The notes beneath the pieces are model-generated. The model searched no databases, was not told the origin of the DNA, and saw only the letters and a program-made list of their open reading frames with translations. From a virus, in the IMG/VR virus record IMGVR_UViG_3300044959_000131, positions 1 through 64,000 of that record: 64,000 nucleotides of DNA. One strand, written 5' to 3'. The translations under genes were made by a program, and so were the position numbers. Numbering within the stretch: the first letter of the stretch is position 1; every line of letters begins with the position of its first letter. Below are positions 8,816-22,247 of the stretch, piece by piece.

Positions 8816-9865
8816 TTACTCTACATCCATGACACGGCTGTAACCGGTGATTTTTGCGAGCGCAGCCTGCCCTGCCTCTTTGGCAATGTCATCTAAGGCA
8901 TATTTGCCGATGGTCTCAAGTAGTTCCTTGAGGTTCGACATTGCGTTCGGGTTATTGTTGAGCATCGTCGCTGATGCCTCGTAGTCGATTCCGTCTTTGT
9001 CACTCAAGGTGTAGGCATACTTCTCCTTGATGTCGTCCAATGTCTTTTGGACATCGGAGTTTGTGAAGTCGAGTGACTTGAATACTGCAAAGGCGTCGAA
9101 GAGCGGCTTCAAGTTCTTAGGGTTCAACTTGCCCTGTTTTTCGAGCAGCTCTTTAGCGTGCTTTGCAGCCTCACCGAGCGTCTTGTGCATCAGGGCCGCC
9201 GTTTCCGCAACCCACTCTTGAAGATCGGATTGGAGCTTTTTGTGGGCCTCAATGGCTTGGTCGGCGCTTACCTTGGATAGGCTATCCGCCGCCGAGATTT
9301 TGAACATTCGCCACTCAAACCTGAACTTCGACTTCAGCTCGTCGATATCCAAGAACGATTCTTCGTTCTTGAGATACTGCTTCTTTACCCAGGCATCGAT
9401 TTCGTACTTCTTTTCCTTCGTTATTGGATAGGAGTTCTCGATCCTCTTTGCGGCAATCTTATCCACCTGTGCGTTGAGGACCTCAAGCTGAGCTCTCTTG
9501 AGCTCTGGGTAGTTGTCGATGAGGTTCTTTACTTCCTTCAAGAACTCCAACTTTAGGGCCGTCAGCTTTTCCAGCAGGTCTTCCAAGACTGGATATCTAA
9601 CGAATCGCGCCCCAGCAATTGGAAAATCTGAGGAGCGTGAAGCCAAGGTTGACCTTGCCTTGCTTTCGATCTCCTGAATCCTTGAGATAGCGTCCTTCGG
9701 TAGGAGTTTCTTATGTCCCAGCTTGAAGGCTCCTGGATCCAAGTTTGGCAGGTCCAGATCATCGGCATTGAGCTTCTTGATCGCTGCCCACCTACCTACA
9801 TCGAGGTCGAATAGAATTCCTTGTTTGAAGATTACATCCTCAATTCCTTGATTGACGGAACCCAT
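8816..9865 (-). CDS. DUF3150-like protein
   Basis: 349 aa. The N-terminus KQGILFDLDVGRWAAIKKL (about 14-32), followed by an ADDLDLP segment, matches my memory of DUF3150 proteins, which in phages and plasmids often neighbour AAA+ ATPases. The rest is long helices with coiled-coil character (residues 85-250). The ATG has GGAG 7 bases upstream. It is the last gene of the leftward operon carrying the Ycf46-like ATPase, so a role with that ATPase is inferred. The biochemical activity of the family is not known to me. Confidence 0.7.
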   Translation of the reverse strand: MGSVNQGIEDVIFKQGILFDLDVGRWAAIKKLNADDLDLPNLDPGAFKLGHKKLLPKDAISRIQEIESKARSTLASRSSDFPIAGARFVRYPVLEDLLEKLTALKLEFLKEVKNLIDNYPELKRAQLEVLNAQVDKIAAKRIENSYPITKEKKYEIDAWVKKQYLKNEESFLDIDELKSKFRFEWRMFKISAADSLSKVSADQAIEAHKKLQSDLQEWVAETAALMHKTLGEAAKHAKELLEKQGKLNPKNLKPLFDAFAVFKSLDFTNSDVQKTLDDIKEKYAYTLSDKDGIDYEASATMLNNNPNAMSNLKELLETIGKYALDDIAKEAGQAALAKITGYSRVMDVE

Positions 9866-9867
9866 AC

Positions 9868-10113
9868 CTAGTCTCCAACTATCCCAGTTTTCTCTCTAGG
9901 TCCTGGACACGGTCCGTTTTGGCACTCAGGTTTTGTACACGGAATGCACCCTGTGCCGTGGCATATCTCACAGTTATCGCAATTCTCGCCATCGGCATGG
10001 TGCCGAGGACAAGAGGGCCATTTGCACTCGGCGGCGCAAATCTCCCGTCTGTCCTCGGCACCACAGTCCAGGCATCGAGCACCGGGCCATCCTGACCAGC
10101 GGTGTTCTGACAT
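9868..10113 (-). CDS. Cys-rich zinc-binding protein
   Basis: 81 aa with about 13 Cys. CLDC, CAAEC, CPRHH, CDNCEICHGTGC and CTKPEC units resemble DnaJ-type and rubredoxin-like zinc centres; CDNCEICHGTGC in particular is DnaJ-like. ATG 10113 is taken as the start (a GTG one codon earlier is possible). It lies between the DUF2997-like and DUF3150-like genes, almost without spacing. Confidence 0.75.
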   Translation of the reverse strand: MSEHRWSGWPGARCLDCGAEDRREICAAECKWPSCPRHHADGENCDNCEICHGTGCIPCTKPECQNGPCPGPREKTGIVGD

Positions 10114-10115
10114 CA

Positions 10116-10319
10116 CTACTTATTCCCGACAGACACCGTTCCCTTAGCGGTGCGAAGAGCCTCTGGCTTCTTGGTCTGTTTCACTACGGAACCGAGCGCC
10201 TTGATGATTCCCTCTGTTTCCTTGAGACATGCAGAGTCGCTGAATCCGTCTGCCTCGATGTTGACGTGTCCCGGGTCCTTAGGATCGATGCTGATGATGA
10301 TTCTCTTCTCGGATGCCAT
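10116..10319 (-). CDS. DUF2997-like small protein
   Basis: 67 aa. RIIISIDPKDPGHVNIEADG, then SDSACLKETEGIIKALG, follows the DUF2997 pattern: a strand with a Dx(D/N)G-like turn, a conserved S-x-C and a helix. AGGAG lies 6 bases before the ATG. By memory, DUF2997 and DUF1257 genes occur together near Ycf46-type ATPases in cyanobacteria and other bacteria, as they do here. Confidence 0.7.
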   Translation of the reverse strand: MASEKRIIISIDPKDPGHVNIEADGFSDSACLKETEGIIKALGSVVKQTKKPEALRTAKGTVSVGNK

Positions 10320-10328
10320 TTGCTTCTC

Positions 10329-10715
10329 CTAGATGTCCATCTTCCGCTCGTACTTTATGGACGAGCCGGTCTTGTGGACCGTAATTGGGATGGACTCATG
10401 CACGATCTGCAGGCTGTCTTCTATTTCTGGAAGTGATTCGCCACTCTTCCACTTCTTGTAGATGTCTTTTGATGACGGACTGGACTCAAGAACCTGTTTG
10501 GTGTGCTTGCATGATCGAATCTTCTCTCCAGTCTTGGCATTCTTCTTTGGGAAGATCCAGCCGGGGCAGTTGCAGGAGAGACTGCCGTCCTCCCAGAGGA
10601 GAGTCTGGTATTGAGCTTTCATACCCTCAACTTCTCTGTTGGAGGTGAAAACCCAACTGTAGATTGCCCTCCCCCTATCTTGTTTCTTGTTGGTTTTTCT
10701 CTTCTTGTCTATCAC
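10329..10715 (-). CDS. SWIM-type zinc-finger protein
   Basis: 128 aa. SCNCPGW (about 49-55) followed by SCKHTKQV (about 69-76) gives the CxCx(n)CxH signature of SWIM domains, which bind DNA or protein partners, with a basic N-terminus ahead. The GTG start at 10715 has only a weak ribosome-binding site. It lies between the DUF2997-like and DUF1257 genes of the same operon, so it may be an accessory of that module. Confidence 0.65.
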   Translation of the reverse strand: MIDKKRKTNKKQDRGRAIYSWVFTSNREVEGMKAQYQTLLWEDGSLSCNCPGWIFPKKNAKTGEKIRSCKHTKQVLESSPSSKDIYKKWKSGESLPEIEDSLQIVHESIPITVHKTGSSIKYERKMDI

Positions 10716-10776
10716 TTGTAATCTCTACTGATTTCTATGCATGAAGAATGTTTTCTTGCGATGTCGTGATCTCGAC

Positions 10777-11223
10777 TCAAGAGTACTTCGTGGCGTAGAG
10801 CTTTATGGTGCCGTCCTTCTCTTTCACGCGCTTCAGTGAGTAGCCCTGGCTCTTGAGCTGCTTTTCCGCCACCCTAGCTGTGTACTCCTGCATGACGAAA
10901 TTCTGCTTCTCGACGTCGAAGTTCCTTTTCTTGTCGAATTCAGAGATGTAGGCCACGTACTTTCCATCCCCGGTCCGTCGATACCCGACGTCGTTGGCCG
11001 CGCTGCCAACATTGTTCCTGCGAATGATGATGTGGCACGGCGGGGCGTAGTCGGGCGAGCTCCTGTCTAGGAGCGACCTGTTGTCACCTTGGTACCCGTA
11101 GAGTGGAGCTCCATCTTCGTGAACTTCGACGTTTCCAGCTCCGAATTGAGCTTCCAAAGCTTCGATGAGCTGCCTTTCGTACTTCTGGAGGAAGTCGACC
11201 TTGATTTCCGTAAAGTGGCTCAT
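10777..11223 (-). CDS. DUF1257 / Ycf35-like protein
   Basis: 148 aa. The opening MSHFTEIKVDF is the hallmark of Ycf35/DUF1257, followed by an alpha-beta region with CHIIIRRNNVGSAANDVGYR (83-102) and a DGKYVAYISEFD strand, and ending in a basic strand pair. Ycf35 is encoded in red-algal plastids and cyanobacteria; its activity is unknown to me. Here it is one gene downstream of the Ycf46-like ATPase. Confidence 0.8.
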   Translation of the reverse strand: MSHFTEIKVDFLQKYERQLIEALEAQFGAGNVEVHEDGAPLYGYQGDNRSLLDRSSPDYAPPCHIIIRRNNVGSAANDVGYRRTGDGKYVAYISEFDKKRNFDVEKQNFVMQEYTARVAEKQLKSQGYSLKRVKEKDGTIKLYATKYS

Positions 11224-11243
11224 GTGTAGTTCCCATCTAAGAA

Positions 11244-11274
11244 GGATGCCGGCTCATACTTCGAGCCGGCATCC
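11244..11274 (-). terminator. 12-bp hairpin after the Ycf46-like gene
   Basis: GGATGCCGGCTC and GAGCCGGCATCC form a perfect 12-bp stem with a 7-base loop, 22 bases beyond the ATPase stop. On the minus strand TTCTT follows, so it is a probable terminator or attenuator between the ATPase and DUF1257 genes. Confidence 0.6.
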
Positions 11275-11296
11275 GTTGTACCATACTACTCTGACA

Positions 11297-12847
11297 TCAG
11301 GCATCGATGGCCCGACCGATTGCAACTTCTCGCTTCTTTACGACATTGGCAGGTCGTGTGCGGCCCTTGCACCACTGCTGCATGGCCTCGATTTGTGACT
11401 TCATCATCTCGGACAGAGGAACCGTCTCATCAACGGCCATCTGAATGTCGATCATCCCAAGCTCCCGGTTTGCGGAGAAGGCCGTGAACATGGCCTCGTT
11501 GATGACAGCTTCGATCTCTGCACCCGAGAAGCCCTCGGTGTCCTTGACGAGGCCATCCATGTTGAGGTTCTTGATGAGCTTTTCACGTCCCCTCTTGGCT
11601 AGGTGGATGTGGAAAATCTCCCTCCTTTCGTCTTCGTTCGGCAGGAGCACCGAGAACGTTTCGTCAAAACGACCCTTCCGAAGGAGTTCTGGTGGAAGGG
11701 ACGATACGTCGTTGGCGGTCGCGTAGACGAAGACGGGACTTGTCTTCTCTTGCATCCATGTCAGGAATGTTCCTAGGACACGAGCCCCGACGCCCGAGTC
11801 CAAGTTCCCTGACCCAGAACCGGCGAAGCCCTTCTCAATCTCGTCCAGCCACAAAACGCACGGGGCAACGGCCTCGGCCGTCTGGATGACTCTCCTGGCG
11901 TTTTCCTCGGATGCGCCGACCAGTCCAGCGAATATACGGCCCATGTCACACCGAAGAAGTGGGAGACCGAGCTCTTCGCTGATGGCCTTTGCTCCCAATG
12001 ACTTTCCAGAGCCAGGAGGCCCAACCATGAGAATGCCTTTTGGTGATGGGAGGCCGTATTCTCTGGCTTTCTCAGTGAAAGCCTGCTTCCTCTTGGAAAT
12101 CCATTCCTTGAGGTTTGCCATCCCACCTACCTGCTTCAGTCCATTACCCTGTGGAGGGTAGTAGGTCAAAAGGCCAGTCTTCTTCAATGTCTGGCACTTT
12201 TCCTCCATGACCACCGCTGGGTCCCATCGCTTCGTGCTGTTGTTCATCTTGGACCGAACGTACGACAGTGTGAATGCGTTCTCGGCCTCAGATGTCGTCA
12301 GCCCAAGCGCAGCATCAATCAGTTGTTTCCTTAGCTCTGGACTCGGGATGCTGTCCCCCTTCAGCTTGGTACCATCGATGATACCCTGAATGACTCTGTC
12401 GAGCTCCTCCGGTCCAGGAAGATTCATCTCGACGAGTGCGAACTCCTTTTCAAGCTCTGGAGGAAGCTTGACGACCGGTGATATCACGACAACCGTCTTC
12501 TGGCTGGCCTTGTAGTGCTGTATGAGGTCGATGACCTTGGCCTGGATCCCTGGGTCTTCGAAGAAGTGGTGCATCAGTGGCATTGCCACGATGGACTTCG
12601 GGTTCATCTTTATCATGAAGTCGAGTGCGTTCGATGGTCCGTCTGTGTCATCGACCACCTTTGCGGTCCCCTCCCTCATGAGACCCTTCGATAGAGTCCA
12701 CACCCACAATTCTCGGTTCGTCTCCTTCGCGGCGAGACGAATCTCCTGCAAAGAGCGCATGTACTCCGAGCTCTGCAGGTAGATAGCCGGGTAGCCAGCC
12801 TTCACCTTCTCAATGATGGCCCTAGCGGTGCTGATGTTATTCGCCAT
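11297..12847 (-). CDS. Ycf46-like AAA+ ATPase
   Basis: 516 aa from ATG 12847 (GAGGGG 7 bases upstream; an in-frame start nine codons earlier is weaker). The N-terminal 220 residues contain the VVVISPVVKLPPELEKEFALV segment typical of Ycf46. The AAA+ core has Walker A GPPGSGKS (about 276-283), Walker B CVLWLDEIEKG (about 330-340), a sensor-1-like VYATAND and the arginine-finger region RKGRFDETF. The helical lid follows, with SGAEIEAVINEAMFTAF. Such ATPases are cytoplasmic remodellers; the plastid and cyanobacterial member has been linked to carbon metabolism. The upstream gene overlaps by 11 bases. Confidence 0.85.
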   Translation of the reverse strand: MANNISTARAIIEKVKAGYPAIYLQSSEYMRSLQEIRLAAKETNRELWVWTLSKGLMREGTAKVVDDTDGPSNALDFMIKMNPKSIVAMPLMHHFFEDPGIQAKVIDLIQHYKASQKTVVVISPVVKLPPELEKEFALVEMNLPGPEELDRVIQGIIDGTKLKGDSIPSPELRKQLIDAALGLTTSEAENAFTLSYVRSKMNNSTKRWDPAVVMEEKCQTLKKTGLLTYYPPQGNGLKQVGGMANLKEWISKRKQAFTEKAREYGLPSPKGILMVGPPGSGKSLGAKAISEELGLPLLRCDMGRIFAGLVGASEENARRVIQTAEAVAPCVLWLDEIEKGFAGSGSGNLDSGVGARVLGTFLTWMQEKTSPVFVYATANDVSSLPPELLRKGRFDETFSVLLPNEDERREIFHIHLAKRGREKLIKNLNMDGLVKDTEGFSGAEIEAVINEAMFTAFSANRELGMIDIQMAVDETVPLSEMMKSQIEAMQQWCKGRTRPANVVKKREVAIGRAIDA

Positions 12848-13190
12848 TGACTTTCCCCTCACGTTTTGGAGCAAGAAGCTCCCAGAAGAAATTCACTTCC
12901 AATTCCAATGCGATGTTCCGTGTTTTGAAAAACACCAGCTCTCCTGTACGACTACATACGATCTCACTTATCCCGTCCTTTTTAGCGCATCGAATGGCTA
13001 GATTTCGGTCGTACGCAGACCTGACCGTCCATCCCTTCTTTCCGTCTGACTCCTCCCACTCCACATTTGATGCCCGGCAGGATGTCGCTATTTCTCCGCC
13101 GATGTCTTTTGCGAATTGCTCGATGCCATCCTGGTACATCATCTGGATGGTACCGTCCGGTGCAATCTCGACTTCGAATTTGTCCTTCAT
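12837..13190 (-). CDS. hypothetical protein in the Ycf46 operon
   Basis: 117 aa from ATG 13190, which overlaps the upstream stop (13187) as ATGA; a longer reading from 13259 runs far into that gene and is less likely. The opening KFEVEIAPDGTIQMMYQDGI has a strand-turn-strand pattern somewhat like DUF2997. Two Cys (TSCRASN, AIRCAKK) and an EWEESDGKKGWTVRSAYD segment follow. No family named. Tight overlaps tie it to the ATPase. Confidence 0.7.
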   Translation of the reverse strand: MKDKFEVEIAPDGTIQMMYQDGIEQFAKDIGGEIATSCRASNVEWEESDGKKGWTVRSAYDRNLAIRCAKKDGISEIVCSRTGELVFFKTRNIALELEVNFFWELLAPKREGKVNGE

Positions 13191-13903
13191 CGCTGATGTG
13201 CCTTCTCTATCCGGCTCTTCGATTCTGAGATGATAGAGTCGGCGTTCTCCGCTATCCACTTATGTGGCGACATCACTCCATCATTTGCCTTGTCAACGAG
13301 GTTCTTGATGTAAGTCCCAGTCTCCCCAGACATGTCGGATTCGTCGACAATCTTTTTCATCGCCCATAGGACGGTTATAGAAATTGGTGCGCAGACTGGT
13401 GCTTGGTTCTGTCTGAATTCGGCATCGAGCATCCAGACTTGTTTCTCAAGGTGTATGAGGTTGAGTAGCCGTACACTAGTTCCCTTTGGTGCATCAGGTG
13501 AGCAGTTTTCTGGTGGGCTGGAGACGAAATGGTAGCGGCACATGCTTGGCCTGAACGGGTATATGCTACACTCGTTCTGGTCCGTCAAAAACGGACACCT
13601 CAGCTTCTTCTCAAAGTAGTTCTCTCTGGTGACGTTCTTGTAGCTCGCCGCGATGGCGTTCCTTTTAAGTGCCTCTAGCAGCTCTCCCAGTCTTGGACGA
13701 ATTGACTCGTCCACCAAGAGCCGTTCAGCGATGTTCAGGCCCTCCGTCAGAGTCAGTGTTGCAAGGAGATAACAACAGTGAGCGCAGCCCTTTTTGCAGC
13801 TCACACCTCCAACTTTTTGGATTGCCTCCTGAGCTTTCTTATCTAGTATCTCGAAGAGACGATCAAATTCGTCCGTCAGGAAGACGGTTTCATCCAACGT
13901 CAA
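13187..13903 (-). CDS. YkgJ-family cysteine-cluster (Fe-S or zinc-chelating) protein
   Basis: 238 aa. CKKGCAHCCYL (about 36-46) is the CxxxCxxCC signature of the YkgJ family, and a second cluster CPFLTDQNECSIYPFRPSMCRYH (about 103-125) completes it. The family is thought to chelate Fe-S or zinc, and some members act as metal-dependent modifying enzymes. It is the first gene of the leftward operon ending at 8816, preceded by a promoter-sized gap with a short inverted repeat (13919-13936). Confidence 0.8.
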   Translation of the reverse strand: MTLDETVFLTDEFDRLFEILDKKAQEAIQKVGGVSCKKGCAHCCYLLATLTLTEGLNIAERLLVDESIRPRLGELLEALKRNAIAASYKNVTRENYFEKKLRCPFLTDQNECSIYPFRPSMCRYHFVSSPPENCSPDAPKGTSVRLLNLIHLEKQVWMLDAEFRQNQAPVCAPISITVLWAMKKIVDESDMSGETGTYIKNLVDKANDGVMSPHKWIAENADSIISESKSRIEKAHQR

Positions 13904-14014: not shown

Positions 14015-14016
14015 AA

Positions 14017-14090
14017 CGACCCCAGCAGGACTCGAACCTGCAACACCTGGCTTAGAAGGCCAGTGCTCTATCCGATTGAGCTATGGGGCC
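14017..14090 (-). tRNA. tRNA-Arg (anticodon TCT)
   Basis: 74 bases. The acceptor stem GGCCCCA/TGGGGTC has one G-U pair and G73. The anticodon loop CTTCTAA reads AGA. The T-arm CAGG-TTCGAGT-CCTG is standard. The 3' CCA is not encoded. Confidence 0.95.
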
Positions 14091-14114
14091 ATCACCGTGC
14101 TTGTCTTCTACGTG

Positions 14115-14187
14115 TGCCTCCGGCAGGATTCGAACCTGCATCGACCTGGATTTTAAGTCCAGCGCTTTACCATTTAGCTACGGAGGC
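14115..14187 (-). tRNA. tRNA-Leu-like (anticodon TAA) with a short variable loop
   Basis: 73 bases. Acceptor GCCTCCG/CGGAGGC with A73, D-arm with GG, anticodon stem CTGGA/TCCAG and loop CTTAAAA give anticodon TAA for UUA codons. The variable loop is only about 6 bases, unlike the long arm of normal tRNA-Leu, so its charging identity is uncertain. CCA is not encoded. Its 5' acceptor bases, read on the other strand, form the GGAGG of the next plus-strand gene. Confidence 0.9.
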
Positions 14188-14192
14188 TAACT

Positions 14193-14750
14193 GTGAGAGT
14201 CATCATCTATGACAAGAACCCGGGAGTAGGATTCACTCAATGGCTCCTGAAGCTATCTTGGTCTATCGGGTGCTGGTTTCAAAAACTCATCGGAGCAGTA
14301 GATGACTACTACGGAGCATCATCTTGGGATGATGCGAAGCAGTGGCTTCTCTCACGGCCGCGCCCACTGACAGTTATCCAGTACTGGGGTCATGGGAGCC
14401 CCGCTCGAGTGTGGCTTGCTCAGAAACTCGTTCCATCATATGAATGGCTGACGTTGAAAGAAGCTATAGCCCCAGACTCTCTTCTCTGGTTCAGGGCCTG
14501 TAGTGTCTTTCAAGGAAATTCCGGAATCGACTTCTCGAAAGAGCTCGCTGACGGTCTGAACTGCACCATCGCTGGACACACAAGAGTCATCGGGCTATTT
14601 CAAGGTGGTCTCTACACGCGCAAGCCGCACCAACCACCAAGTTGGTCACCGTTGGAGGGAACGACGCGGGGTTGGTTGCCAGACCATTTGAAGTGGTGGA
14701 ACAAGAACACCATATTCTGTCTTAGAACCAAAGTCCCCGAGGGTTGGTAA
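14193..14750 (+). CDS. caspase/CHAT-fold-like protein
   Basis: 185 aa, starting at GTG 14193 with GGAGG 6 bases upstream (inside the opposite-strand tRNA gene). VIQYWGHGSPARVWL (61-75) ends a strand with His67-Gly, and LLWFRACSVFQG (97-108) ends another with Cys103. A helix and the AGHTRVIG strand follow. This is the His...Cys arrangement of clan CD peptidases and related CHAT/DUF4347-type domains. It is a lone plus-strand gene among minus-strand tRNAs. It could be a protease or an inactive relative. Confidence 0.55.
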   Translation: MRVIIYDKNPGVGFTQWLLKLSWSIGCWFQKLIGAVDDYYGASSWDDAKQWLLSRPRPLTVIQYWGHGSPARVWLAQKLVPSYEWLTLKEAIAPDSLLWFRACSVFQGNSGIDFSKELADGLNCTIAGHTRVIGLFQGGLYTRKPHQPPSWSPLEGTTRGWLPDHLKWWNKNTIFCLRTKVPEGW

Positions 14751-14782
14751 AGTAGAAGAATCTGCCGAATTTTCCGTCGTAG

Positions 14783-15049
14783 TCACTTGAATCTCTTGTT
14801 GACGGAAGCGATGAGGGCCTCGGCGAGGTCCACGTACATCTCGATTTCCGTCTTCAACGCACCGAGCTGCGAAGCGGTAAGCCCAAAGCACATGGCTACT
14901 CTTGAGGCCAATATGGCCGTCGCCACATTCAGCAACTCAGCGCGCGCCACCTTCCAGGATTCGAGGTCGGTCGTGGACGCGAGCATCAAAACATCGCTCA
15001 CTGTGACGGGCTTCACTTCTGGTTCCTTCTGTTCCGTTGGTTCTTTCAT
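14783..15049 (-). CDS. small hypothetical protein
   Basis: 88 aa from ATG 15049, which has GGGGGTG 5 bases upstream. In-frame upstream codons run back into the tRNA-Ser gene and are not credible as coding. The N-terminus is Glu/Pro/Lys-rich; residues 20-85 are helical (VARAELLNVATAILASRVAM). No family recognised. Confidence 0.65.
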   Translation of the reverse strand: MKEPTEQKEPEVKPVTVSDVLMLASTTDLESWKVARAELLNVATAILASRVAMCFGLTASQLGALKTEIEMYVDLAEALIASVNKRFK

Positions 15050-15114
15050 TTCTTCACCCCCTTCTTTTTGACGAACAGTTTCTGGCGCGTTTAGGCTCAC
15101 TGCTTTTGACATTG

Positions 15115-15202
15115 TGGAAGAGGTGAGATTCGAACTCACGGGGCCTTTCAGGGGCCCTCCGGTTTTCAAGACCGGTGCCTTAAGCCGCTCGGCCACTCTT
15201 CC
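15115..15202 (-). tRNA. tRNA-Ser (anticodon TGA)
   Basis: 88 bases with the long variable arm of tRNA-Ser (GGGCCCC...GGGGCC-type stem). Acceptor GGAAGAG/CTCTTCC, loop CTTGAAA reading UCA. CCA is not encoded. Confidence 0.95.
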
Positions 15203-15249
15203 ATAGTCCAGCTCATCTGAGACGCCAGACGAGAAGGAGTTATTTCGAT

Positions 15250-15798
15250 TCAGTTGTCGTTATCTATTTCCGTGTGCCAGTAGGCTACGGACTTCATCCA
15301 TTGCTTCCAAGCGTCCGGCATTCCTTTCTGCCATGTAAATGTGATGTTGAATGTGTATGGAAGCTTATTAGGCTTTGTTGGTCTCTGAATCAAGTTCATA
15401 TTTGCTTGCTCAGGAGTACGACCAGCCTTCTTCTGGTTACATGGCGTGCAGCATACAACGACGTTCTCCCATGTCGTCGGACCACCTTGTGACCGTGGAA
15501 TGACGTGATCATAGGTGAAGTCGCTTCTCGGAACCTTGACTCCGCAGTACTGACATTTTCCGTTGTCCCTCAAGTAGACGTTCTCTCTCGAGAATCTGAT
15601 CGCCCTCTTACGTCCTCTGATGGATCTGAGGAGTCTGATCACACACGGCATCTTGAATTGAAGCGTAACGGAGCGAACGATTCTATCTTCGTACTCCTCT
15701 ACGACCTCAACCTTCCCTTCCCAGAGCAGAGTAATCGCCCTCTGCCAAGATACTTTTGCTATCGGCTCATAAGAAATACTCAGGACCAGAGTGTCCAT
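15250..15798 (-). CDS. HNH endonuclease
   Basis: 182 aa. CQYCG (about 82-86), then TYDHVIPRSQGGPTTWENVV and CCTPCNQKKAG, give two CxxC zinc pairs around the HNH core (His in DHV, Asn in WENVV, and the CNQKK segment). It resembles McrA/HNH family nucleases with a TPEQA tail. The ATG has GAGG 8 bases upstream. It lies between two tRNA genes. It may be a free-standing homing-type nuclease or a DNA-packaging or defence nuclease; context favours a mobile gene. Confidence 0.85.
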   Translation of the reverse strand: MDTLVLSISYEPIAKVSWQRAITLLWEGKVEVVEEYEDRIVRSVTLQFKMPCVIRLLRSIRGRKRAIRFSRENVYLRDNGKCQYCGVKVPRSDFTYDHVIPRSQGGPTTWENVVVCCTPCNQKKAGRTPEQANMNLIQRPTKPNKLPYTFNITFTWQKGMPDAWKQWMKSVAYWHTEIDNDN

Positions 15799-15818
15799 CC
15801 GTCGAGCCTCATTACCAA

Positions 15819-15897
15819 TGCCCCGGGAGGGAATCGAACCCTCACGCCTGAGCAGCGGATTTTGAGTCCGCCGTGTCTACCGTTCCACCACCGGGGC
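15819..15897 (-). tRNA. tRNA-Leu (anticodon CAA)
   Basis: 79 bases. Acceptor GCCCCGG/CCGGGGC, A73, loop CTCAAAA reading UUG, and a variable arm of about 11 bases. CCA is not encoded. Confidence 0.93.
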
Positions 15898-15899
15898 GT

Positions 15900-16079
15900 T
15901 CACAATTCAATTCGGTACGGTGACCGATGCGCCCCACATTTTGTACACTCCCCAGTAGATTCGAATAGATGCTCAGTCTCAGACTTGCAGTACTCTGTTC
16001 TCTCCTTTCTTCTGAACAAACTTTCGGCCTTATTGGCCTTTCCTAACTCCATATCTTCCTTGGTCAACATGCTTGTCAT
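15900..16079 (-). CDS. small zinc-knuckle-like protein
   Basis: 59 aa from the second of two ATGs (16079), AAGG 7 bases upstream. A charged helix is followed by CTKCGAH, with a further Cys and His upstream (EYCKSETEHLF), a possible single zinc site. It fits exactly between two tRNA genes. Confidence 0.55.
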   Translation of the reverse strand: MTSMLTKEDMELGKANKAESLFRRKERTEYCKSETEHLFESTGECTKCGAHRSPYRIEL

Positions 16080-16104
16080 CATCGTACCTTACTCCACTCC
16101 TTTT

Positions 16105-16186
16105 TGGGCCAGGAGAGACTCGAACTCTCACGCCTGTTAGGCGCCGGATCCTAAGTCCGGTGCGTCTACCATTCCGCCACTAGCCC
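16105..16186 (-). tRNA. tRNA-Leu (anticodon TAG)
   Basis: 82 bases. Acceptor GGGCTAG/CTGGCCC, A73, loop CTTAGGA reading CUA, and a long variable arm (CGCCTAACAGGCG hairpin). CCA is not encoded. Confidence 0.95.
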
Positions 16187-16191
16187 GTACC

Positions 16192-16356
16192 TCAATGAGG
16201 TTTTTTGACCGTGAAGCCAGAACCTATGCACATTCCACTATAGGCATAGTGCGGTGAGTATCCTCCCTTCTTCGTGATATCTACAATTTTCGAACACCAC
16301 GGGCACTTTACCTTCTTTGTCCCACTCTTCGTCTTCTTAACGTTCTTCTTAGGCAT
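16192..16356 (-). CDS. small zinc-finger protein
   Basis: About 54 aa. A lysine-rich N-terminus (MPKKNVKKTKSGTKKV) precedes CPWCSK, then a His and a Cys (PHYAYSGMC) that could complete a zinc site. The start is either ATG 16356 or the ATG two codons earlier; it overlaps the preceding gene's stop. Probably nucleic-acid binding; not named. Confidence 0.55.
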   Translation of the reverse strand: MPKKNVKKTKSGTKKVKCPWCSKIVDITKKGGYSPHYAYSGMCIGSGFTVKKPH

Positions 16357-16546
16357 GCTCATTCGTAACGTTCTTAGGCACTTGTTCAGGGCTGGAGTGG
16401 CTGGTGAGGTGCCATCCATCACAATACTTACAACGATATGCACGTTGGCCGTGCTTATGAGCTTCTCTTCTCGCTTGGCCTTCGTGCTTGAACTTCACCT
16501 TCCTTGAACAGCTCTTCCACATCTTCCACGCTTTCCAGTCTGTCAT
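16349..16546 (-). CDS. small zinc-finger phage protein
   Basis: 65 aa. YRCKYCDGWHLTSH (about 38-51) is a CxxCxxWH motif seen in many small phage proteins; a basic helical segment with Trp and Lys precedes it. ATG 16546 begins two bases past the tRNA-Val 3' end. The longer frame upstream is tRNA sequence and is rejected. It overlaps the next gene by 8 bases. Confidence 0.65.
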   Translation of the reverse strand: MTDWKAWKMWKSCSRKVKFKHEGQARREAHKHGQRAYRCKYCDGWHLTSHSSPEQVPKNVTNEHA

Positions 16547-16547
16547 G

Positions 16548-16620
16548 TGGCCGACCCCGGAATTGAACCGGGCCCTCCGGTGTGTAAGACCAGCGCTCTC
16601 ACCAAGTGAGCTAGTCAGCC
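16548..16620 (-). tRNA. tRNA-Val (anticodon TAC)
   Basis: 73 bases. Acceptor GGCTGAC/GTCGGCC with one G-U pair, A73, loop CTTACAC reading GUA. CCA is not encoded. A coding gene starts two bases downstream. Confidence 0.94.
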
Positions 16621-16640
16621 GGTTACGGTTATATATTTTG

Positions 16641-16713
16641 TGGACTCCACGGGAGTCGAACCCGTCACCTCCGCCGTGCAAAGGCGGCGCTCTACCAGAT
16701 GAGCTAGGAGCCC
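16641..16713 (-). tRNA. tRNA-Ala (anticodon TGC)
   Basis: 73 bases. Acceptor GGGCTCC/GGAGTCC, A73, anticodon stem CCGCC/GGCGG with loop TTTGCAC reading GCA. CCA is not encoded. Confidence 0.95.
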
Positions 16714-16746
16714 AAGTACGGTACCTGTCCGCATCTCCTTAAGTGA

Positions 16747-16789
16747 TAATAGATGGATTCAGACCATAATGGTCTGAATCCATCTATTA
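16747..16789. repeat. perfect 21-bp inverted repeat with 1-base centre
   Basis: 16747-16767 and 16769-16789 are exact reverse complements around a single A. It sits between the minus-strand gene ending at 16820 and the tRNA-Ala gene, so it may separate those transcripts. There is no U-tract. With the 13974 palindrome it brackets the first tRNA block. Confidence 0.9.
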
Positions 16790-16819
16790 CTTATACCAAG
16801 AGAGGGAGTCTTTTTCGAT

Positions 16820-17059
16820 TCAATCCGAGATGAGCTCGGCTTCGATCTTCTTCTTTTTCAGTCGAGCAAGTGCCTTCTTTGCGGAGCTTTCGTCCTTGAA
16901 TAAGAAGCTGATATCGCGAATCCTTGTAACGAGGTTCGTCCCTGCTCCTTCTTCTGGACGTCCGACGATTCCACGAATAGTGGAGTCGAGACCGAACCCT
17001 GGGTAGCGGTCGATGTCGTAATACACGTTCAGCCGGAACGACTTGGACTGCTTCCTCAT
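16820..17059 (-). CDS. small hypothetical protein
   Basis: 79 aa from ATG 17059 (AAGGAG about 10 bases upstream). Beta-rich N-terminal half, then a Lys-rich helix (SSAKKALARLKKKKIEAEL), suggesting a small alpha/beta domain. It is followed by the 21-bp inverted repeat. Function unknown. Confidence 0.65.
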   Translation of the reverse strand: MRKQSKSFRLNVYYDIDRYPGFGLDSTIRGIVGRPEEGAGTNLVTRIRDISFLFKDESSAKKALARLKKKKIEAELISD

Positions 17060-17104
17060 TACAAGTGCTCTCCTTTGTTTATGGGTCCACAATTCTTGAG
17101 ATCT

Positions 17105-17554
17105 TCAATTCTTGAGATCTTCTACGTACCACTCCAACTGACGTTCGCTCCATCTACGACGAAGTGTGCGAACGAACTTGCGGCCGTGTTTCGATACTAT
17201 CGTAACGTTGATGTACTTCGGTCTTGCGAAGTCGAAGGCCAGTTCCCACATTTTTAATGCGATGCCGCGCCTTCTATACGCCGCCTCGACCCATGTACCA
17301 GCGGCATGTAGTTCCGGCACAGGATGGTCGTCTTTGGTTGGGTACTCGAACACGTTGAATCGAAAGAATCCGATGACTCTATGGTTTGTCGTCGCGACAA
17401 TAACGTAATCGCAAGGAAGATACGCCCACTCCTTGAAAAAATTATGCCCATGATTAGAAATTCTTGGACGTTGAACGTGCGATGTGAAAGGCCCTGCGAG
17501 GTAGTGCGTTGAGCTGATTCTATAGTTGATACGCTTTGTTGGGTCTAGCGTCAT
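17105..17554 (-). CDS. GNAT-type N-acetyltransferase-like protein
   Basis: 149 aa from ATG 17554, which overlaps the upstream stop as ATGA. VIVATTNHRVIGFFRFNVFE (about 52-71) is a beta2-beta3-like pair. GTWVEAAYRRRGIALKMWELAFDFA (about 87-111) matches the beta4/alpha3 acetyl-CoA-binding motif (R-x-x-G-I/A). Family members acetylate small molecules or proteins; substrate unknown. A much longer upstream extension is antisense-like sequence and is rejected. Confidence 0.7.
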   Translation of the reverse strand: MTLDPTKRINYRISSTHYLAGPFTSHVQRPRISNHGHNFFKEWAYLPCDYVIVATTNHRVIGFFRFNVFEYPTKDDHPVPELHAAGTWVEAAYRRRGIALKMWELAFDFARPKYINVTIVSKHGRKFVRTLRRRWSERQLEWYVEDLKN

Positions 17555-18339
17555 TGCAGCTTCTCCAGCAGCCCAATCCACTCCTGCATGCTGCTGCGGA
17601 GGCAGGACAGACACACTGCGCTCGTCATCCACGAGTCGTTGTACTGCTTCCACGTCCCGAAGTGCCGTCTTTCCCCGCTTTCGCCGTGGCAGACGATGCA
17701 GCGGCCCGGCTCCACGTTTGCGACTGCAAAACCGTTGTTTTCGACGTGGTAGGCCGGTGCATCTCCCTTCGAGTACTGCCCCGGCGGCTGGATGGTGAAG
17801 AAATTTTCCATGCGCGCACCGAGGTGCCACGAGTGACGCACCTCGTCTGGCGAGTCTATGGCCTCACTTTGTGCAAACCAGATGCACGACAACGGCCCAG
17901 TCTTGTGCTGTGCGACGAATGGCTTCAACTCGTCAGGGACTTGGTGCTTTTTCTGTGAGAAAGAAACGGACGCCGTATTGAGACCAACGCGCAACCCGGC
18001 CGCCTCGAAATGCTTTCTCACGTCTTCTTTGTGTTCCCGCGGCATGAGGGGCACGACAATGCGTAGCGTCCGGGCGGGCACCAACTCGTAGTAGCTGTAC
18101 ACCTTGTTCTCTTCTTCGTCTCTCTCGTGGCGCACACAAATTCCCCTGTCGGTGAGGCGCGAGAGAAACAACTCCACCGGGTTGACGTCCGTCCGGTACC
18201 CGTCCTCTCCGGGGAATTTGTAGTGGGTACCGTGTTTGGCGCAGCAGCTTGCAACGTATGCCGGTCTCTGGCTTGCTTCTTCGACTTTCTTTCTGAGCGA
18301 CTCCAGGCTTTGTTTTTCGGATAGGTTGAGAATGCTCAT
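17551..18339 (-). CDS. hypothetical protein with a C-terminal zinc site
   Basis: 262 aa. CIVCHGESGERRHFG (about 217-231) and CLSCL (about 245-249) form a probable zinc-binding pair; the N-terminal half is mixed, with SCCAKHGTHY near residue 31. Base composition looks GC-richer than the surrounding genes. GGAGG precedes the ATG. It overlaps both neighbours by ATGA, so a three-gene operon is likely (18686 to 17105). Confidence 0.7.
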   Translation of the reverse strand: MSILNLSEKQSLESLRKKVEEASQRPAYVASCCAKHGTHYKFPGEDGYRTDVNPVELFLSRLTDRGICVRHERDEEENKVYSYYELVPARTLRIVVPLMPREHKEDVRKHFEAAGLRVGLNTASVSFSQKKHQVPDELKPFVAQHKTGPLSCIWFAQSEAIDSPDEVRHSWHLGARMENFFTIQPPGQYSKGDAPAYHVENNGFAVANVEPGRCIVCHGESGERRHFGTWKQYNDSWMTSAVCLSCLRSSMQEWIGLLEKLQ

Positions 18340-18686
18340 TTCGCCTCCGATTCAGATGTCTGATCGTGATCGTCGGAGAGCTCGTCGAGAACGGACCTCA
18401 CGTCTGGAATTTTGCCCTCGTTGATGATGGTCGCCAGGCGATAGATGACCAAATACCAGTCGTGGTTTTCCCACAGCTTCTGGTCCGCCTTTTCGACTTC
18501 GGTGAGATCGTATGCGGTTTTAACGACTAGGTTTCGCAGGAAGGAACGAGATCCATCGTTTTTCTCGATGTTGATATCTCGTTTCAGATGCGCTTCTTTG
18601 GCCTTGTCGAAATCCAACTCCCTTGCCAGCTCGAAGACGTTTTCTCCAAACCGTTCACTGTTCTCGTCCATGTGACCGTTCAACAT
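18336..18686 (-). CDS. hypothetical protein
   Basis: 116 aa, acidic and helical, without a recognised motif. AGGAG sits directly against the first ATG at 18686, and the sixth codon ATG (18671) is rather far from it, so the start is uncertain. Its stop overlaps the next gene. Confidence 0.6.
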   Translation of the reverse strand: MLNGHMDENSERFGENVFELARELDFDKAKEAHLKRDINIEKNDGSRSFLRNLVVKTAYDLTEVEKADQKLWENHDWYLVIYRLATIINEGKIPDVRSVLDELSDDHDQTSESEAK

Positions 18687-18689
18687 CTC

Positions 18690-19034
18690 CTAACACACTT
18701 TGTCTTTTCCTGCATTCCTACGAGCCATTATTTCAGCGACTAGCTTCTCATGACCGCGCCTTGCATCTTCCTCATTCGTATATCGACGGCACTCTCTCCA
18801 ACCACCGTCGTAATACGCCATCGTCTCGAAGATGACGGGTTTGTCGGACAGCGGATCATGGTCAATTCCAAGCCACACCGTCGAGACGTACTCACCTTCC
18901 TTGGAAAGAGAAGTCCAACAGATTCGCCAGTATGATTCGTCTCCTCCCCTCTTCCGGAAGAACTCGTCTCTAGATAGAGGAGAACCATCTCTGTCGTAGT
19001 AGATATGACTCCTGTCATGGTGTGTTTTGTCCAC
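18690..19034 (-). CDS. hypothetical protein
   Basis: 114 aa from GTG 19034, with GGAG 8 bases upstream. Beta-rich centre (SYWRICWTSLSKEGEYVSTVWLGID) and a basic C-terminal helix. No family recognised. It lies just downstream of the tRNA-Pro gene on the same strand. Confidence 0.65.
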   Translation of the reverse strand: MDKTHHDRSHIYYDRDGSPLSRDEFFRKRGGDESYWRICWTSLSKEGEYVSTVWLGIDHDPLSDKPVIFETMAYYDGGWRECRRYTNEEDARRGHEKLVAEIMARRNAGKDKVC

Positions 19035-19078
19035 AGTGCTTACTCCATAAGAGGAACCAGATCATTTCGATGTTTGCT

Positions 19079-19152
19079 TCTGGGTGGCCGGATTCGAACC
19101 GACGACCTTCTGCTCCCAAGGCAGACGCTCTACCAGGCTGAGCCACACCCAG
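19079..19152 (-). tRNA. tRNA-Pro (anticodon TGG)
   Basis: 74 bases. Acceptor CTGGGTG/CACCCAG, A73, anticodon stem TCTGC/GCAGA, loop CTTGGGA reading CCA. The 3' CCA is not encoded. Confidence 0.94.
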
Positions 19153-19172
19153 TTAATTGCTATCTGACTTAC

Positions 19173-19400
19173 TTATTCTCCGAGGTACGGAACGTTCTCG
19201 TCTTCCGAAAAGATGAAGTACTGAACGCCATTACGGACGATGGTTTTAGGTGGTGAGTGGTTGACCATCTTGACTCGTTGTCTTGGTGGCCAACTTATGA
19301 ACAGCTTCACTTTCTTGTCTGTCTTACTACTCATCGTCCTTTCGTAGCACTCGATGGCACTTCGAAGAGAAGTGTGTGGGTGTCTCCTGCAAAACTTCAT
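19173..19400 (-). CDS. small basic hypothetical protein
   Basis: 75 aa with AAGG 8 bases before the ATG. N-terminal CRRHPH and a basic middle, ending in a beta strand (VQYFIFSEDENVPYL). No family recognised. A hairpin (19443-19476) separates it from the upstream gene. Confidence 0.6.
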   Translation of the reverse strand: MKFCRRHPHTSLRSAIECYERTMSSKTDKKVKLFISWPPRQRVKMVNHSPPKTIVRNGVQYFIFSEDENVPYLGE

Positions 19401-19442
19401 CTTACTGACCTTAGAAGTCGAAACTCATAATTAATAATTTCA

Positions 19443-19476
19443 ACGTGTGACTGGGATAATCCCCCCAGTCACACGT
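19443..19476 (-). terminator. 13-bp hairpin after the repeat-rich gene
   Basis: ACGTGTGACTGGG and CCCAGTCACACGT form a perfect 13-bp stem with an 8-base loop, 14 bases past the stop at 19491. On the minus strand a T/A-rich stretch follows. Probable terminator. Confidence 0.6.
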
Positions 19477-19490
19477 CGTCTGTATTCACC

Positions 19491-20480
19491 TCAAGGTGTT
19501 ACCTCCCATCCGTTCCAAGCAACACGAACTAGGCGCTGGCGACGCATCTCCTCGAGTGTCTCTCCGGGTCCTTCCAACTCCAGCTCGCTAGGCCGCTCAC
19601 AGAGAATGGCAAACTCGCGGTGCGGCCAGATGAGGCAGCAACTCTCACACAGCGCCGCGTAGGCGCGGGCCCGTAACTCCATGTCGCGCCCAATGTCGAG
19701 TCGCAGTACGTCGAGGGCATAGGATACAGCAGCGGGGCCCCACCACCAGCTGCCAACCGAGAACTGGGCCTCAAGGTAGCGCCGCCAGAGGTCGGCCACA
19801 GCAACGCCCGCCGCACTGTGCAACCCGTAGCACACTGCATCGCCAATCGCTCGATGGGTGGTGTTGCTCACTTCGAAGTGAACCACACGTCGCATTACAC
19901 CATGCACGGCACGATGTACCGCTCCATGCACCGTGTCGCCCACAGCGCTACATAATGCATCCTCCAGCTCTCTGGTCACGCTGTCGTGTACCGCGTCATG
20001 CACCGCCGAATGTACATCGGTGTGCATCAAGTCGCGTACCACGCCTTGCACGACAATAAACACTTCGCCCCGTACTGCGCCGCTGACGGAGTCGTACACC
20101 ACGCTGTCACCAGACAGCTGGAGCGCAGCCCGCGCACCCGCGAGGCACGCCACCAACGGTGACGACGCCCAAATGAGTCGCTTTGGAGGATGAAGTCGAG
20201 AGAGGCGATAGCAGGCGAGTAGAGCAGCCTCTGCTAGCGCCCTGTCGGCGGGCTGTATGCATCGGCCAACAGCAATCCACCGTCGTGCGTGCTCGTCGAG
20301 CTGCGCGCGCTCTTCGTCGGTAAGCGACTCCACACGCTTGCGCAGCGGCCCCTCGCGCTGCGGCAACTCGTCCCGGTACAGACGCGCCACGTCGATGCGG
20401 CCCTGCTCATCGTACCAGTCGCCGAGGACTTCGCGTCCATCGGCGGTGGAGGCGAGGGTGAGTATTTCCTGCTGCGTCAC
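19491..20480 (-). CDS. repeat-rich hypothetical protein, probably acquired
   Basis: 329 aa from GTG 20480 (GAGG 7 bases upstream). The N-terminus ADGREVLGDWYDEQGRIDVARLY recalls TIGR02996-type openings (leader of large paralogous families in Gemmata and myxobacteria). Residues about 130-215 are a run of short VHxAVHxxV repeats. The C-terminus has a WWWGPAAVSYALDVLRLDIG segment. Its GC content is visibly higher than the flanking genes, a sign of transfer from a GC-rich bacterium. Role unknown. Confidence 0.7.
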   Translation of the reverse strand: MTQQEILTLASTADGREVLGDWYDEQGRIDVARLYRDELPQREGPLRKRVESLTDEERAQLDEHARRWIAVGRCIQPADRALAEAALLACYRLSRLHPPKRLIWASSPLVACLAGARAALQLSGDSVVYDSVSGAVRGEVFIVVQGVVRDLMHTDVHSAVHDAVHDSVTRELEDALCSAVGDTVHGAVHRAVHGVMRRVVHFEVSNTTHRAIGDAVCYGLHSAAGVAVADLWRRYLEAQFSVGSWWWGPAAVSYALDVLRLDIGRDMELRARAYAALCESCCLIWPHREFAILCERPSELELEGPGETLEEMRRQRLVRVAWNGWEVTP

Positions 20481-20542
20481 AGAATCACCTCGACGAGGAG
20501 AAAATCATCGCGCAGCCTCTGTCGGCATGGTGCCCTCCATTC

Positions 20543-20746
20543 CTACGCCTTGAGCGGTGATGATGGCGTAGTCACCTCTTGTTTCCTACGAGGCACAGCC
20601 AGCAGGCGCTCCCCTTCTGCCTTGTACTCCGCCCTCTTCTTCTCGTTTTTCTCTTTCTTCGCTCGATCAAGAAACATCATCGCTTGTTGGCAGCGGTGGC
20701 ATTCCTTACCCAGACCCTTGTGGCCACACTTGAACAATCGACGCAT
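20543..20746 (-). CDS. small zinc-binding basic protein
   Basis: 67 aa from ATG 20746 (AAAGGGAG 6 bases upstream). FKCGHKGLGKECHRCQQA (5-22) holds a Cys/His cluster for one zinc, followed by a highly basic helix. Function unknown; possibly nucleic-acid binding. Confidence 0.6.
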   Translation of the reverse strand: MRRLFKCGHKGLGKECHRCQQAMMFLDRAKKEKNEKKRAEYKAEGERLLAVPRRKQEVTTPSSPLKA

Positions 20747-20803
20747 GTACGTACTCCCTTTTGGTGGATACTTCGTTTCGTGACGCACGACCATCATGTG
20801 TAG

Positions 20804-21082
20804 TCAGAGCGTCAAACTCACTGTGACGCGCCAACGACAATTCGGACAAATACTACTCCAAGCAATTTGATCAAAGCGTGGTCCTTGGAGCAGTAGAACC
20901 AGTGGTCTCCCACAGACACATGTCGTGGGCATCTCTGTAAAGTTCATCGGCTTAGTCTTCGACTTCCTGTGACAGCGACTTTTCGCGGAAAACTCTTTCG
21001 AAGAGGCCTTCTTCTCTTTCTCCTTCGTTATCTTCATCTTGAGCATCGTGTCCTCGGATCCAGATCCGTCCAAATAGCCCAC
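20804..21082 (-). CDS. small zinc-ribbon protein
   Basis: 92 aa. CVCGRP (about 55-60) and CPNCRW (about 79-84) give a CxC...CxxC ribbon after a basic, Lys/Ser-rich N-terminus. The start (GTG 21082) is uncertain because the AAAGGAGG upstream is about 20 bases away. No family named. Confidence 0.55.
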   Translation of the reverse strand: MGYLDGSGSEDTMLKMKITKEKEKKASSKEFSAKSRCHRKSKTKPMNFTEMPTTCVCGRPLVLLLQGPRFDQIAWSSICPNCRWRVTVSLTL

Positions 21083-21098
21083 ACGATATCGAACGTAC

Positions 21099-21470
21099 CT
21101 ACTCCCTCCTTTCTAGAATTGAATCGATTACCTCTATGATCTCTCGTCGAGATATTGGCTTCGTCAATACTGCGTTCGCACCGGCCAAGCTCGAATCTCG
21201 TTGTAAATCTCCGCTCCCGCCCGTCAAAACGACGATGGGCGTATCTTTGAGTTTTTCATCTGCCCGAATTGATCTCACCAAGGCGATTCCATCCATCACC
21301 GGCATCATGAGGTCTGTGATGATGAGGTCTGGCTCGAACTGCCTGGCCATTCCATATCCCTCAAGACCGTTCTTGGCCTCGTATATTTTGTAGCTCAGTC
21401 GAACGAGGAAGAGCTTGAGAATTGTACGGATCGGTTCCTCGTCCTCAACGATGAGAATCTTCTTTGTCAT
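21099..21470 (-). CDS. CheY-like response-regulator receiver domain
   Basis: 123 aa, a single receiver domain with no output domain. ILIVEDEEP (5-13) holds the acidic Mg-binding residues. DLIITDLMMPVMDG (48-61) places the phospho-acceptor at Asp53, VLTGG has Thr83, and VLTKP has Lys104; all key residues are present. By family knowledge it would take phosphate from a histidine kinase. No kinase gene is seen here, so it may rewire a host two-component pathway. Confidence 0.9.
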   Translation of the reverse strand: MTKKILIVEDEEPIRTILKLFLVRLSYKIYEAKNGLEGYGMARQFEPDLIITDLMMPVMDGIALVRSIRADEKLKDTPIVVLTGGSGDLQRDSSLAGANAVLTKPISRREIIEVIDSILERRE

Positions 21471-21510
21471 GAGTGTAGTTATTTTCTCATGACTTGATAT
21501 GTGGGAAGTA

Positions 21511-21583
21511 TTGGCCCGGCGGGACTCGAACCCGCATCTGTTCGGTTATGAGCCGACGGCTCTACCAATTGAGCTACAGGCCA
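21511..21583 (-). tRNA. tRNA with CAT anticodon (Met, or Ile2)
   Basis: 73 bases. Acceptor TGGCCTG/CGGGCCA with one G-U pair, A73, loop CTCATAA. The anticodon stem lacks the three G-C pairs of an initiator, so it is elongator Met or an Ile2 tRNA that would read AUA after lysidine modification; sequence alone does not decide. CCA is not encoded. Confidence 0.9.
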
Positions 21584-21584
21584 G

Positions 21585-21656
21585 AGCCCACAGAGGGATT
21601 CGAACCCCCGACCTGTCGCTTACAAAGCGAAAGCTCTACCACTGAGCTATGTGGGC
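21585..21656 (-). tRNA. tRNA-Thr (anticodon TGT)
   Basis: 72 bases. Acceptor GCCCACA/TGTGGGC with T73, loop TTTGTAA reading ACA, and T-arm GGGGG-TTCGAAT-CCCTC. CCA is not encoded. It starts one base from the CAT tRNA. Confidence 0.95.
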
Positions 21657-21662
21657 TTCGTT

Positions 21663-21733
21663 CTGGGGCGCAGGGACTCGAACCCTGATGCGTGGCTTCA
21701 AAGGCCACTGTCCTACCTTTAGACGACACCCCA
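21663..21733 (-). tRNA. tRNA-Gln (anticodon TTG)
   Basis: 71 bases. Acceptor TGGGGTG/CGCCCCA with one G-U pair, G73, stem GTGGC/GCCAC and loop CTTTGAA reading CAA. CCA is not encoded. Confidence 0.95.
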
Positions 21734-21740
21734 ACTACAT

Positions 21741-22217
21741 TTATTTTAGATGGACGACAGTAACCATCGTCTCAGCACCGGCGTCGAAGATTTGATCTTC
21801 GGTGTCAAATATTCCCTCGTCCCTGTAGAACTCTTTGTAGACGATTCGATTGATACCAGCGTTGGCGATTAGCTTGAAGCATGTCCAACATGGAGATGTT
21901 GTAGTGTAGATTGTCGATCCATCGAGTCTTACTCCGTTTTTCGCGGCTTGTACGATAGCGTTGGCCTCTGCATGAACCGTCCTCACGCAGTGACCATTGT
22001 GCATCATGCAGCCAATGTCTATATTTCCATCCTCGCAGTGTAGGGATCCTCTGATAGAACCATTGTAGCCAGTTGAAAGAATGATTCGGTCCCGGACGAT
22101 GACGGCGCCTACGTGTTTCCTTGGGCAAGTTGCTCGCGTCGATACTTCTCGCGCAATTCTCATGAAGTAACGGTCCCAGTCTAACCTCTTCTTCTGAAGC
22201 TTCTTCTTTCTCTTCAT
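21741..22217 (-). CDS. dCMP deaminase
   Basis: 158 aa. The zinc site is HAEA (His82, catalytic Glu84) and SPCWTC (Cys110, Cys113). STGYNGSIRG (48-57) and the cysteine-rich insert CEDGNIDIGC-MMHNGHC (61-77) match phage and ComE-type deoxycytidylate deaminases. The enzyme makes dUMP from dCMP and feeds dTMP synthesis, consistent with the ribonucleotide reductase gene nearby. It lies between two tRNA groups on the same strand and is probably co-transcribed. Confidence 0.92.
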   Translation of the reverse strand: MKRKKKLQKKRLDWDRYFMRIAREVSTRATCPRKHVGAVIVRDRIILSTGYNGSIRGSLHCEDGNIDIGCMMHNGHCVRTVHAEANAIVQAAKNGVRLDGSTIYTTTSPCWTCFKLIANAGINRIVYKEFYRDEGIFDTEDQIFDAGAETMVTVVHLK

Positions 22218-22247
22218 AAAGTCTCAAAGATGATGAAGGAGTTGAAG

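Follow-up and report, generated by a model that had tools for sequence, protein, structure and literature searches.

A phage operon linking a Ycf46-type AAA+ ATPase with DUF1257 and DUF2997 proteins, and its relatives in viruses, cells and plasmids

The Ycf46, Ycf35 (DUF1257) and DUF2997 families have long been annotated as 'hypothetical' and have mostly been met in work on photosynthetic organisms. In cyanobacteria, loss of Slr0374 (Ycf46) leads to lower activity of the EcaB carbonic anhydrase, and the slr0373-0374-0376 operon is stress-induced (PMC7496141); judging by gene order, slr0376 presumably encodes a DUF1257 protein. A second cyanobacterial gene cluster, duf2997-ycf35-fed7, includes Fed7, which is needed under iron limitation and binds a DnaJ-like protein (PMC4284462). 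In the literature that we searched, the AAA ATPase, DUF1257 and DUF2997 are nowhere described together as one system. Here, we describe a phage operon that encodes all three.

The operon shares features with both cyanobacterial arrangements. Its ATPase has the same two-ring AAA architecture as cyanobacterial Ycf46 (Slr0374), with approximately 42-44% identity to cyanobacterial copies, and in the cyanobacterial loci examined a DUF1257 gene directly follows the AAA gene, as it does here. Unlike the phage operon, these loci have a CopG-like/Cys-motif gene upstream, and neither DUF2997 nor the small protein p140 was detected adjacent to them. The duf2997-ycf35-fed7 cluster (PMC4284462) has adjacent DUF2997 and DUF1257 genes in common with the phage module, whereas a ferredoxin takes the place of the AAA gene there and the phage has no ferredoxin neighbor.

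The window, that is, the whole stretch of DNA analysed, comprises bases 1-64000 of a 176,945-base virus record (177 kb, possibly a fragment). Eight minus-strand ORFs were confirmed from 13903 down to 8816, packed so tightly that neighbors overlap or lie no more than 73 bases apart. In order of transcription, they encode a YkgJ-type CxxCxxCC protein (13187..13903), the p140 family small protein (12837..13190), the Ycf46-type AAA+ ATPase (11297..12847), the DUF1257 (Ycf35-family) protein (10777..11223), a SWIM-finger-like protein (10329..10715), the DUF2997 protein (10116..10319), an 82-aa Cys-rich protein (9868..10116) and a DUF3150 protein (8816..9865). Read from the sequence, the likely AAA start is the ATG at 12847, preceded by GAGGGG (TTG 12874 opens the longest ORF), and that of p140 is the ATG at 13190, overlapping the YkgJ stop (the longest ORF, of 140 aa, begins at GTG 13259). 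Because the window encodes a baseplate wedge protein and a terminase-like match lies at 107.3 kb of the record, the virus is a tailed phage whose tail is probably contractile. Elsewhere in the window, 13 minus-strand tRNA genes interspersed with small genes are clustered at 14016-22699, with an HNH endonuclease (15250-15798) inside the cluster; a 329-aa protein with repeated V-H-x-A-V-like units is encoded at 19491-20480 (minus strand), and a class II (B12-dependent) ribonucleotide reductase of 982 aa at 24662-27610 (minus strand). The reductase is apparently interrupted by an intein, given a weak Intein_splicing match, below the cut-off, at residues 446-682.

A preliminary description of this DNA recognized a Ycf46-type AAA+ ATPase with intact Walker motifs, an assignment that is borne out. 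The protein matches Pfam AAA (97.5 bits) and AAA_lid_3 (34.8 bits) as well as phrog_8638 (462 bits, 4.3e-138), a PHROG family without assigned function, and shares up to 46% full-length identity with cellular homologs; a degenerate N-terminal ring, an intact C-terminal AAA and the full-length match place it among COG0464-like, Ycf46-type proteins. The second ring has every catalytic motif: Walker A (GKS), Walker B (DE) and the arginine finger are each kept in 61/61 homologs. In the first ring, the P-loop is replaced by T/S-x-E-E-x-R (SSEYMR in the window), and at the expected P-loop site E26 is found in 61/61 and R29 in 60/61 homologs. From these motifs, the first ring is likely inactive and the second active. 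The pore loop mostly reads [L/Y/I/W/M]-V-G among homologs, being L-V-G in the window; some relatives have an aromatic residue.

Structure prediction, with alignments built from the window and the fetched loci, gave an AF2 model of the ATPase with a pLDDT of 93.4 (61 sequences). In Foldseek, this model matched p97/Cdc48, Rix7 and Drg1 over approximately 550 columns spanning both rings, at query-normalised TM scores of up to 0.63. As in these proteins, two stacked AAA folds with a classic-clade second ring are predicted; the window ATPase differs in having no first-ring P-loop and shares only approximately 20% identity with them. It does not belong to p97/Cdc48 proper, as its first ring has no Walker A and the protein is too short for the N-domain. 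The ATP-driven remodelling role proposed for the operon fits the predicted p97-like fold. PADLOC IetA models also match the AAA domain (best 4.5e-26), which would be expected of a relative of the IetAS anti-phage system and might suggest a host takeover or counter-defence factor; we consider this highly improbable, since the match covers the generic AAA domain only, is far weaker than that to phrog_8638, and is accompanied by neither IetS nor another defence protein among the eight operon products. Thus, the operon was not assigned to IetAS.

The two core partners were also identified as proposed. The DUF1257 protein scores 23.2 bits against PF06868 (cut-off 22.2, Pfam hmmscan), which is marginal by itself; it also matches phrog_20456, shares 53-70% identity with homologs at the same position in loci L003 and L032, and has relatives in L061 and L063 that score 35-37 bits. 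With these intermediates and the conserved place of the gene, the assignment is secure despite the marginal score. A fast PF06868 search of the virus record, less sensitive than hmmscan, missed the protein, and tblastn of DUF1257 against phage records gave no match, though HMMs detect DUF1257 in four of them; single-sequence searches are therefore blind for this family. Its AF2 model (pLDDT 92.7) had no PDB match at E<=0.001 and structurally matches one viral model; matches to Bcs1 and GAF were weak, with TM below 0.35. The DUF1257 alignment was too divergent to be scanned. The DUF2997 protein scores 32.4 bits against PF11211 (cut-off 24.1), and one cysteine is invariant in 50/50 proteins of this family; the window protein (GFSDSAC) keeps the cysteine of the GxxGxxC motif, with the second Gly replaced by Asp. 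In Clostridia (L067), the two families are fused in one protein (DUF2997 38.8 bits; DUF1257 21.2 bits, just under the cut-off).

Searching viral contigs with the window ATPase yielded 60 loci (61 with the window), around which partners within 4 kb of the AAA gene were counted using iterated profiles built on the window proteins. DUF1257 or DUF2997 lies within this distance in 18/61 loci and both do in 11, frequencies that are not population estimates because the loci were picked by AAA similarity, and some of the partner-bearing loci are near-identical (L001/L002, L036/L037). Since the profiles were iterated on the very loci counted, absolute counts may hold a few false members; many members were confirmed by Pfam and independent record annotation. 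Comparing matches near the AAA gene with those elsewhere in the same loci gives ratios of 16:1 (DUF1257) and 13:2 (DUF2997), so that both are genomic partners of the ATPase, as had been claimed, and the linkage is far beyond chance. Indeed, profile matches and linkage in other phages, on whose absence the preliminary description said its proposal would fall, were both found. The nearest relative, L032, has 62% AAA identity and the same gene order without the 82-aa protein. Among isolated phages, Rhizobium phage L338C, Aeromonas phage HJ05, Pseudomonas phage SM1 and Rhodobacter phage RcTiptonus have AAA, DUF1257 and DUF2997 in the same order as the window, with DUF1257 independently Pfam-supported in three of the four and p140 present in L338C, HJ05 and SM1. 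They differ from the window in an unassigned gene of approximately 210 aa between AAA and DUF1257 (with a second additional gene there in SM1), and neither SWIM nor DUF3150 was detected in them.

The remaining operon products are accessories of varying reach. The p140 protein was absent from the protein list of the preliminary description and yet recurs with the trio in other phages: homologs adjoin the module in L003, L032, L015, L030 and L001 and occur in the isolated-phage loci L061, L063 and L066, and p140 lies near AAA in seven viral loci. It was rejected as a DUF2997 paralog (hhalign probability 55% over only 23 columns), as was a candidate p140 in an IncA plasmid (E 0.06). For the SWIM-like, 82-aa and 140-aa proteins, searches of Pfam, PHROG and NCBIfam gave nothing significant. 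The SWIM-like protein nevertheless shows a C-x-C...C-x-H pattern (SCNCPGW...SCKHT) that is kept in relatives, and its homologs sit between DUF1257 and DUF2997 in L032, L001, L002 and L003, marking it as an accessory of this phage clade. DUF3150 (PF11348; 58.1 bits, cut-off 24.9), correctly named beforehand, is a frequent accessory, lying near AAA in 10 viral loci including the window and found in one cellular locus (L113) among the matches listed; with the single window protein as query, nothing was confirmed in viral contigs and nothing was found in plasmids. The YkgJ-type cysteine cluster (PF03692; 32.2 bits, cut-off 23.0) is likewise upheld, as a clade-specific accessory with a clear homolog only in L032 among the viral loci, a minus-strand ORF in L011 being doubtful. 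For the 82-aa protein, no homolog was found in the 60 viral loci, including the same spot of L032; it is probably outside the module, and its description as 'DnaJ-like' finds no profile match. Of the metal-binding partners envisaged earlier, the SWIM-like protein recurs near AAA in five viral loci, while YkgJ is clearly found only in the window and L032 and the 82-aa protein only in the window.

A scan of cellular genomes with the window ATPase extended the module well beyond viruses. Among the best 80 loci of the matches listed, 55 have at least one same-strand partner (DUF1257, DUF2997 or an NrdG-like radical-SAM gene) no more than 3 kb away, with a near-to-far ratio over all partners of 88:2. 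Partner-bearing hosts among these matches include Clostridia, Melainabacteria, Spirochaetes, Chloroflexi, Myxococcota, Planctomycetes, Omnitrophota and Hodarchaeota contigs. In spirochaetes, the AAA gene is surrounded by contractile-injection genes (gp19 tube, CIS_tube, Phage_base_V), in operons that also hold a radical-SAM gene (L069 4660-10152, L086 6016-10739 and L148), with DUF2997 additionally present in L069 and L086. A helix-hairpin-helix (ComEA-like) protein adjoins the module's radical-SAM gene in L119, L124, L138 and L144 (Melainabacteria, Paenibacillus).

These cellular neighbors bear on a second reading, raised in the preliminary description as a metallo-cofactor system, in which the operon matures metallo-cofactor or radical proteins: the ATPase would open a client so that an Fe-S cluster, a metal or a radical-SAM-made modification could be installed, and the DUF2997 cysteine would serve as carrier or target. 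The NrdG-like radical-SAM gene adjoins AAA in 19/80 of the best cellular loci and lies near it in viral loci L004, L006, L008 and L036; the proteins tested match Fer4_12 and Radical_SAM, resemble NrdG below the cut-off, and keep CxxxCxxC in 20/20 cases. Together with the linkage of DUF2997 and Ycf35 to Fed7, its iron-limitation role and its DnaJ-like binding partner (PMC4284462), and with the invariant DUF2997 cysteine, these neighbors suggest a metallo-cofactor link, leaving aside the partners named in the preliminary description. However, just 8 of the 43 loci among the best 80 cellular matches with DUF1257 near AAA have a radical-SAM gene nearby, no radical-SAM gene stands beside the module in the isolated phages or the IncC copy examined, and YkgJ and the 82-aa protein are not conserved with the module. 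The 177-kb record, moreover, gave no radical-SAM or Fer4_12 match (PF13353, PF04055) in a search that also missed the marginal DUF1257, and so does not show the radical-SAM-bearing form of the module. We regard maturation as a possible but unlikely function.

Plasmids provide a further set of carriers. Annotated plasmid records contain the AAA gene with DUF2997, DUF1257 and 4Fe-4S proteins, and on one plasmid the order is AAA-DUF1257-DUF2997-4Fe-4S, a point in favor of metallo-cofactor maturation. The IncA plasmid pRSE15 and an E. coli IncC plasmid have AAA (WP_001280522.1), DUF1257-like (WP_000018404.1) and DUF2997 (WP_000757530.1) genes in the same order as the window; they differ in that a 394-aa protein follows, with an extra 110-aa gene in IncC, and in the long branch of their ATPase in the tree. 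This IncC/IncA module lies at L156 3048-5636, where the DUF1257 gene is annotated as 'hypothetical'. The pRSE15 DUF1257 protein, counted alone and not as the full trio, occurs in 588 plasmid records; its identity is >=95% in 574 of these, and 543 are classed as conjugative.

In a tree of 117 AAA sequences, made by a quick method with a short search and with many open forks, the window ATPase forms a group with L032, L003 and L001 (support 100) whose neighbor, at a weaker support of 81, is a cellular sequence. The cyanobacterial sequences form a separate clade (support 100) that excludes the window ATPase, and viruses with the module turn up in several clades. This topology argues against close kinship with the cyanobacterial sequences without fixing the details of origin. 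Because the module occurs in phages, diverse bacteria, archaea and plasmids, it is not a cyanobacterial trait borrowed by a phage, and the earlier idea of a cyanobacterial or plastid module carried for infection is not supported.

No DUF1257 or DUF2997 was detected near the AAA gene in 43/61 viral loci, so the ATPase either works alone there or has partners that were missed. Some partnerless relatives (L010, L014, L016, L023, L025-L027 and others) adjoin genes for a DnaB helicase, a loader of IstB type and a DnaG zinc-ribbon primase. In a narrower form of the remodeller reading, the ATPase would be a replication or partition factor acting on a nucleoprotein complex of the mobile element (helicase, initiator, ParB or recombinase), which it would load, unload or take apart. 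For this speak the 15-17 viral loci in which a related AAA stands beside DnaB_C helicase, IstB/DnaC-like loader and DnaG zinc-ribbon primase genes, a DnaB-like helicase close to the module on p7, a Rhizobium plasmid, a ParB gene close to the IncA copy, and a PD-(D/E)XK nuclease adjoining DUF3150 in cellular locus L113. The helicase-adjacent viral clades, however, are mostly without DUF1257 and DUF2997, the window operon is flanked by tRNAs, an HNH endonuclease and unidentified genes, and cellular copies lie in unrelated operons. So specific a role appears possible, if rather doubtful.

The broader reading, that the operon encodes an ATP-driven protein remodeller with a DUF1257-DUF2997 accessory unit, is the one that we favor, with slightly better than even confidence. 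Co-linearity of the module in viral contigs, isolated phages, cellular genomes and plasmids counts toward it, as do the match of the ATPase model to p97, Rix7 and Drg1, the conserved motifs of both rings, the DUF1257-DUF2997 fusion, the DUF2997 cysteine and the DNA-metabolism neighbors (DnaB-like helicase, ParB). Against it count the Leu in the phage pore loop, where an aromatic residue is usual, the 43 viral loci without detected partners and the wide differences in neighborhood between hosts. The ATPase would form a p97/Cdc48-like ring with a dead first tier and an active second tier, pulling on or threading a client protein. DUF1257 and DUF2997 would together form a small accessory unit, bound to the ATPase, whose task is to choose or present the client; the domain fusion and the constant gene order suggest such a physical partnership. 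The hexamer, complex formation, the client and the timing of action are what we infer around these observations. The invariant DUF2997 cysteine may be chemically important, either as a metal, Fe-S or redox site or, in genomes with a radical-SAM partner, as the residue modified. The p140, SWIM and DUF3150 proteins may be phage-side additions that tune the ATPase to phage clients, among which protein-DNA complexes are the likeliest. Because neighborhoods vary by host (contractile injection operons, plasmid backbone, stress operon), no single client is indicated. Module neighbors on mobile elements hint loosely at DNA metabolism; in cells, metal or radical chemistry is suggested by the links to radical-SAM and ferredoxin genes and by the invariant cysteine. 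A scheme uniting both strikes us as distinctly improbable: the trio would be a widespread remodelling system whose p97-like motor, its first ring dead, acts via the single-cysteine DUF2997, activated by radical-SAM or ferredoxin proteins in cells, and phages and conjugative plasmids would have acquired a slimmed form that controls their own protein-DNA complexes.

The novelty of these findings lies in the breadth of the AAA-DUF1257-DUF2997 module. With the trio in phages, diverse bacteria, Hodarchaeota contigs and IncA/IncC plasmids, the question of its function leaves photosynthesis, and it extends to plasmids that carry antibiotic resistance. The IncA/IncC and phage copies open the trio to tractable E. 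coli and phage genetics, with the DUF2997 cysteine, the Glu/Arg pair of the dead ring and the pore loop as residues that can be tested.
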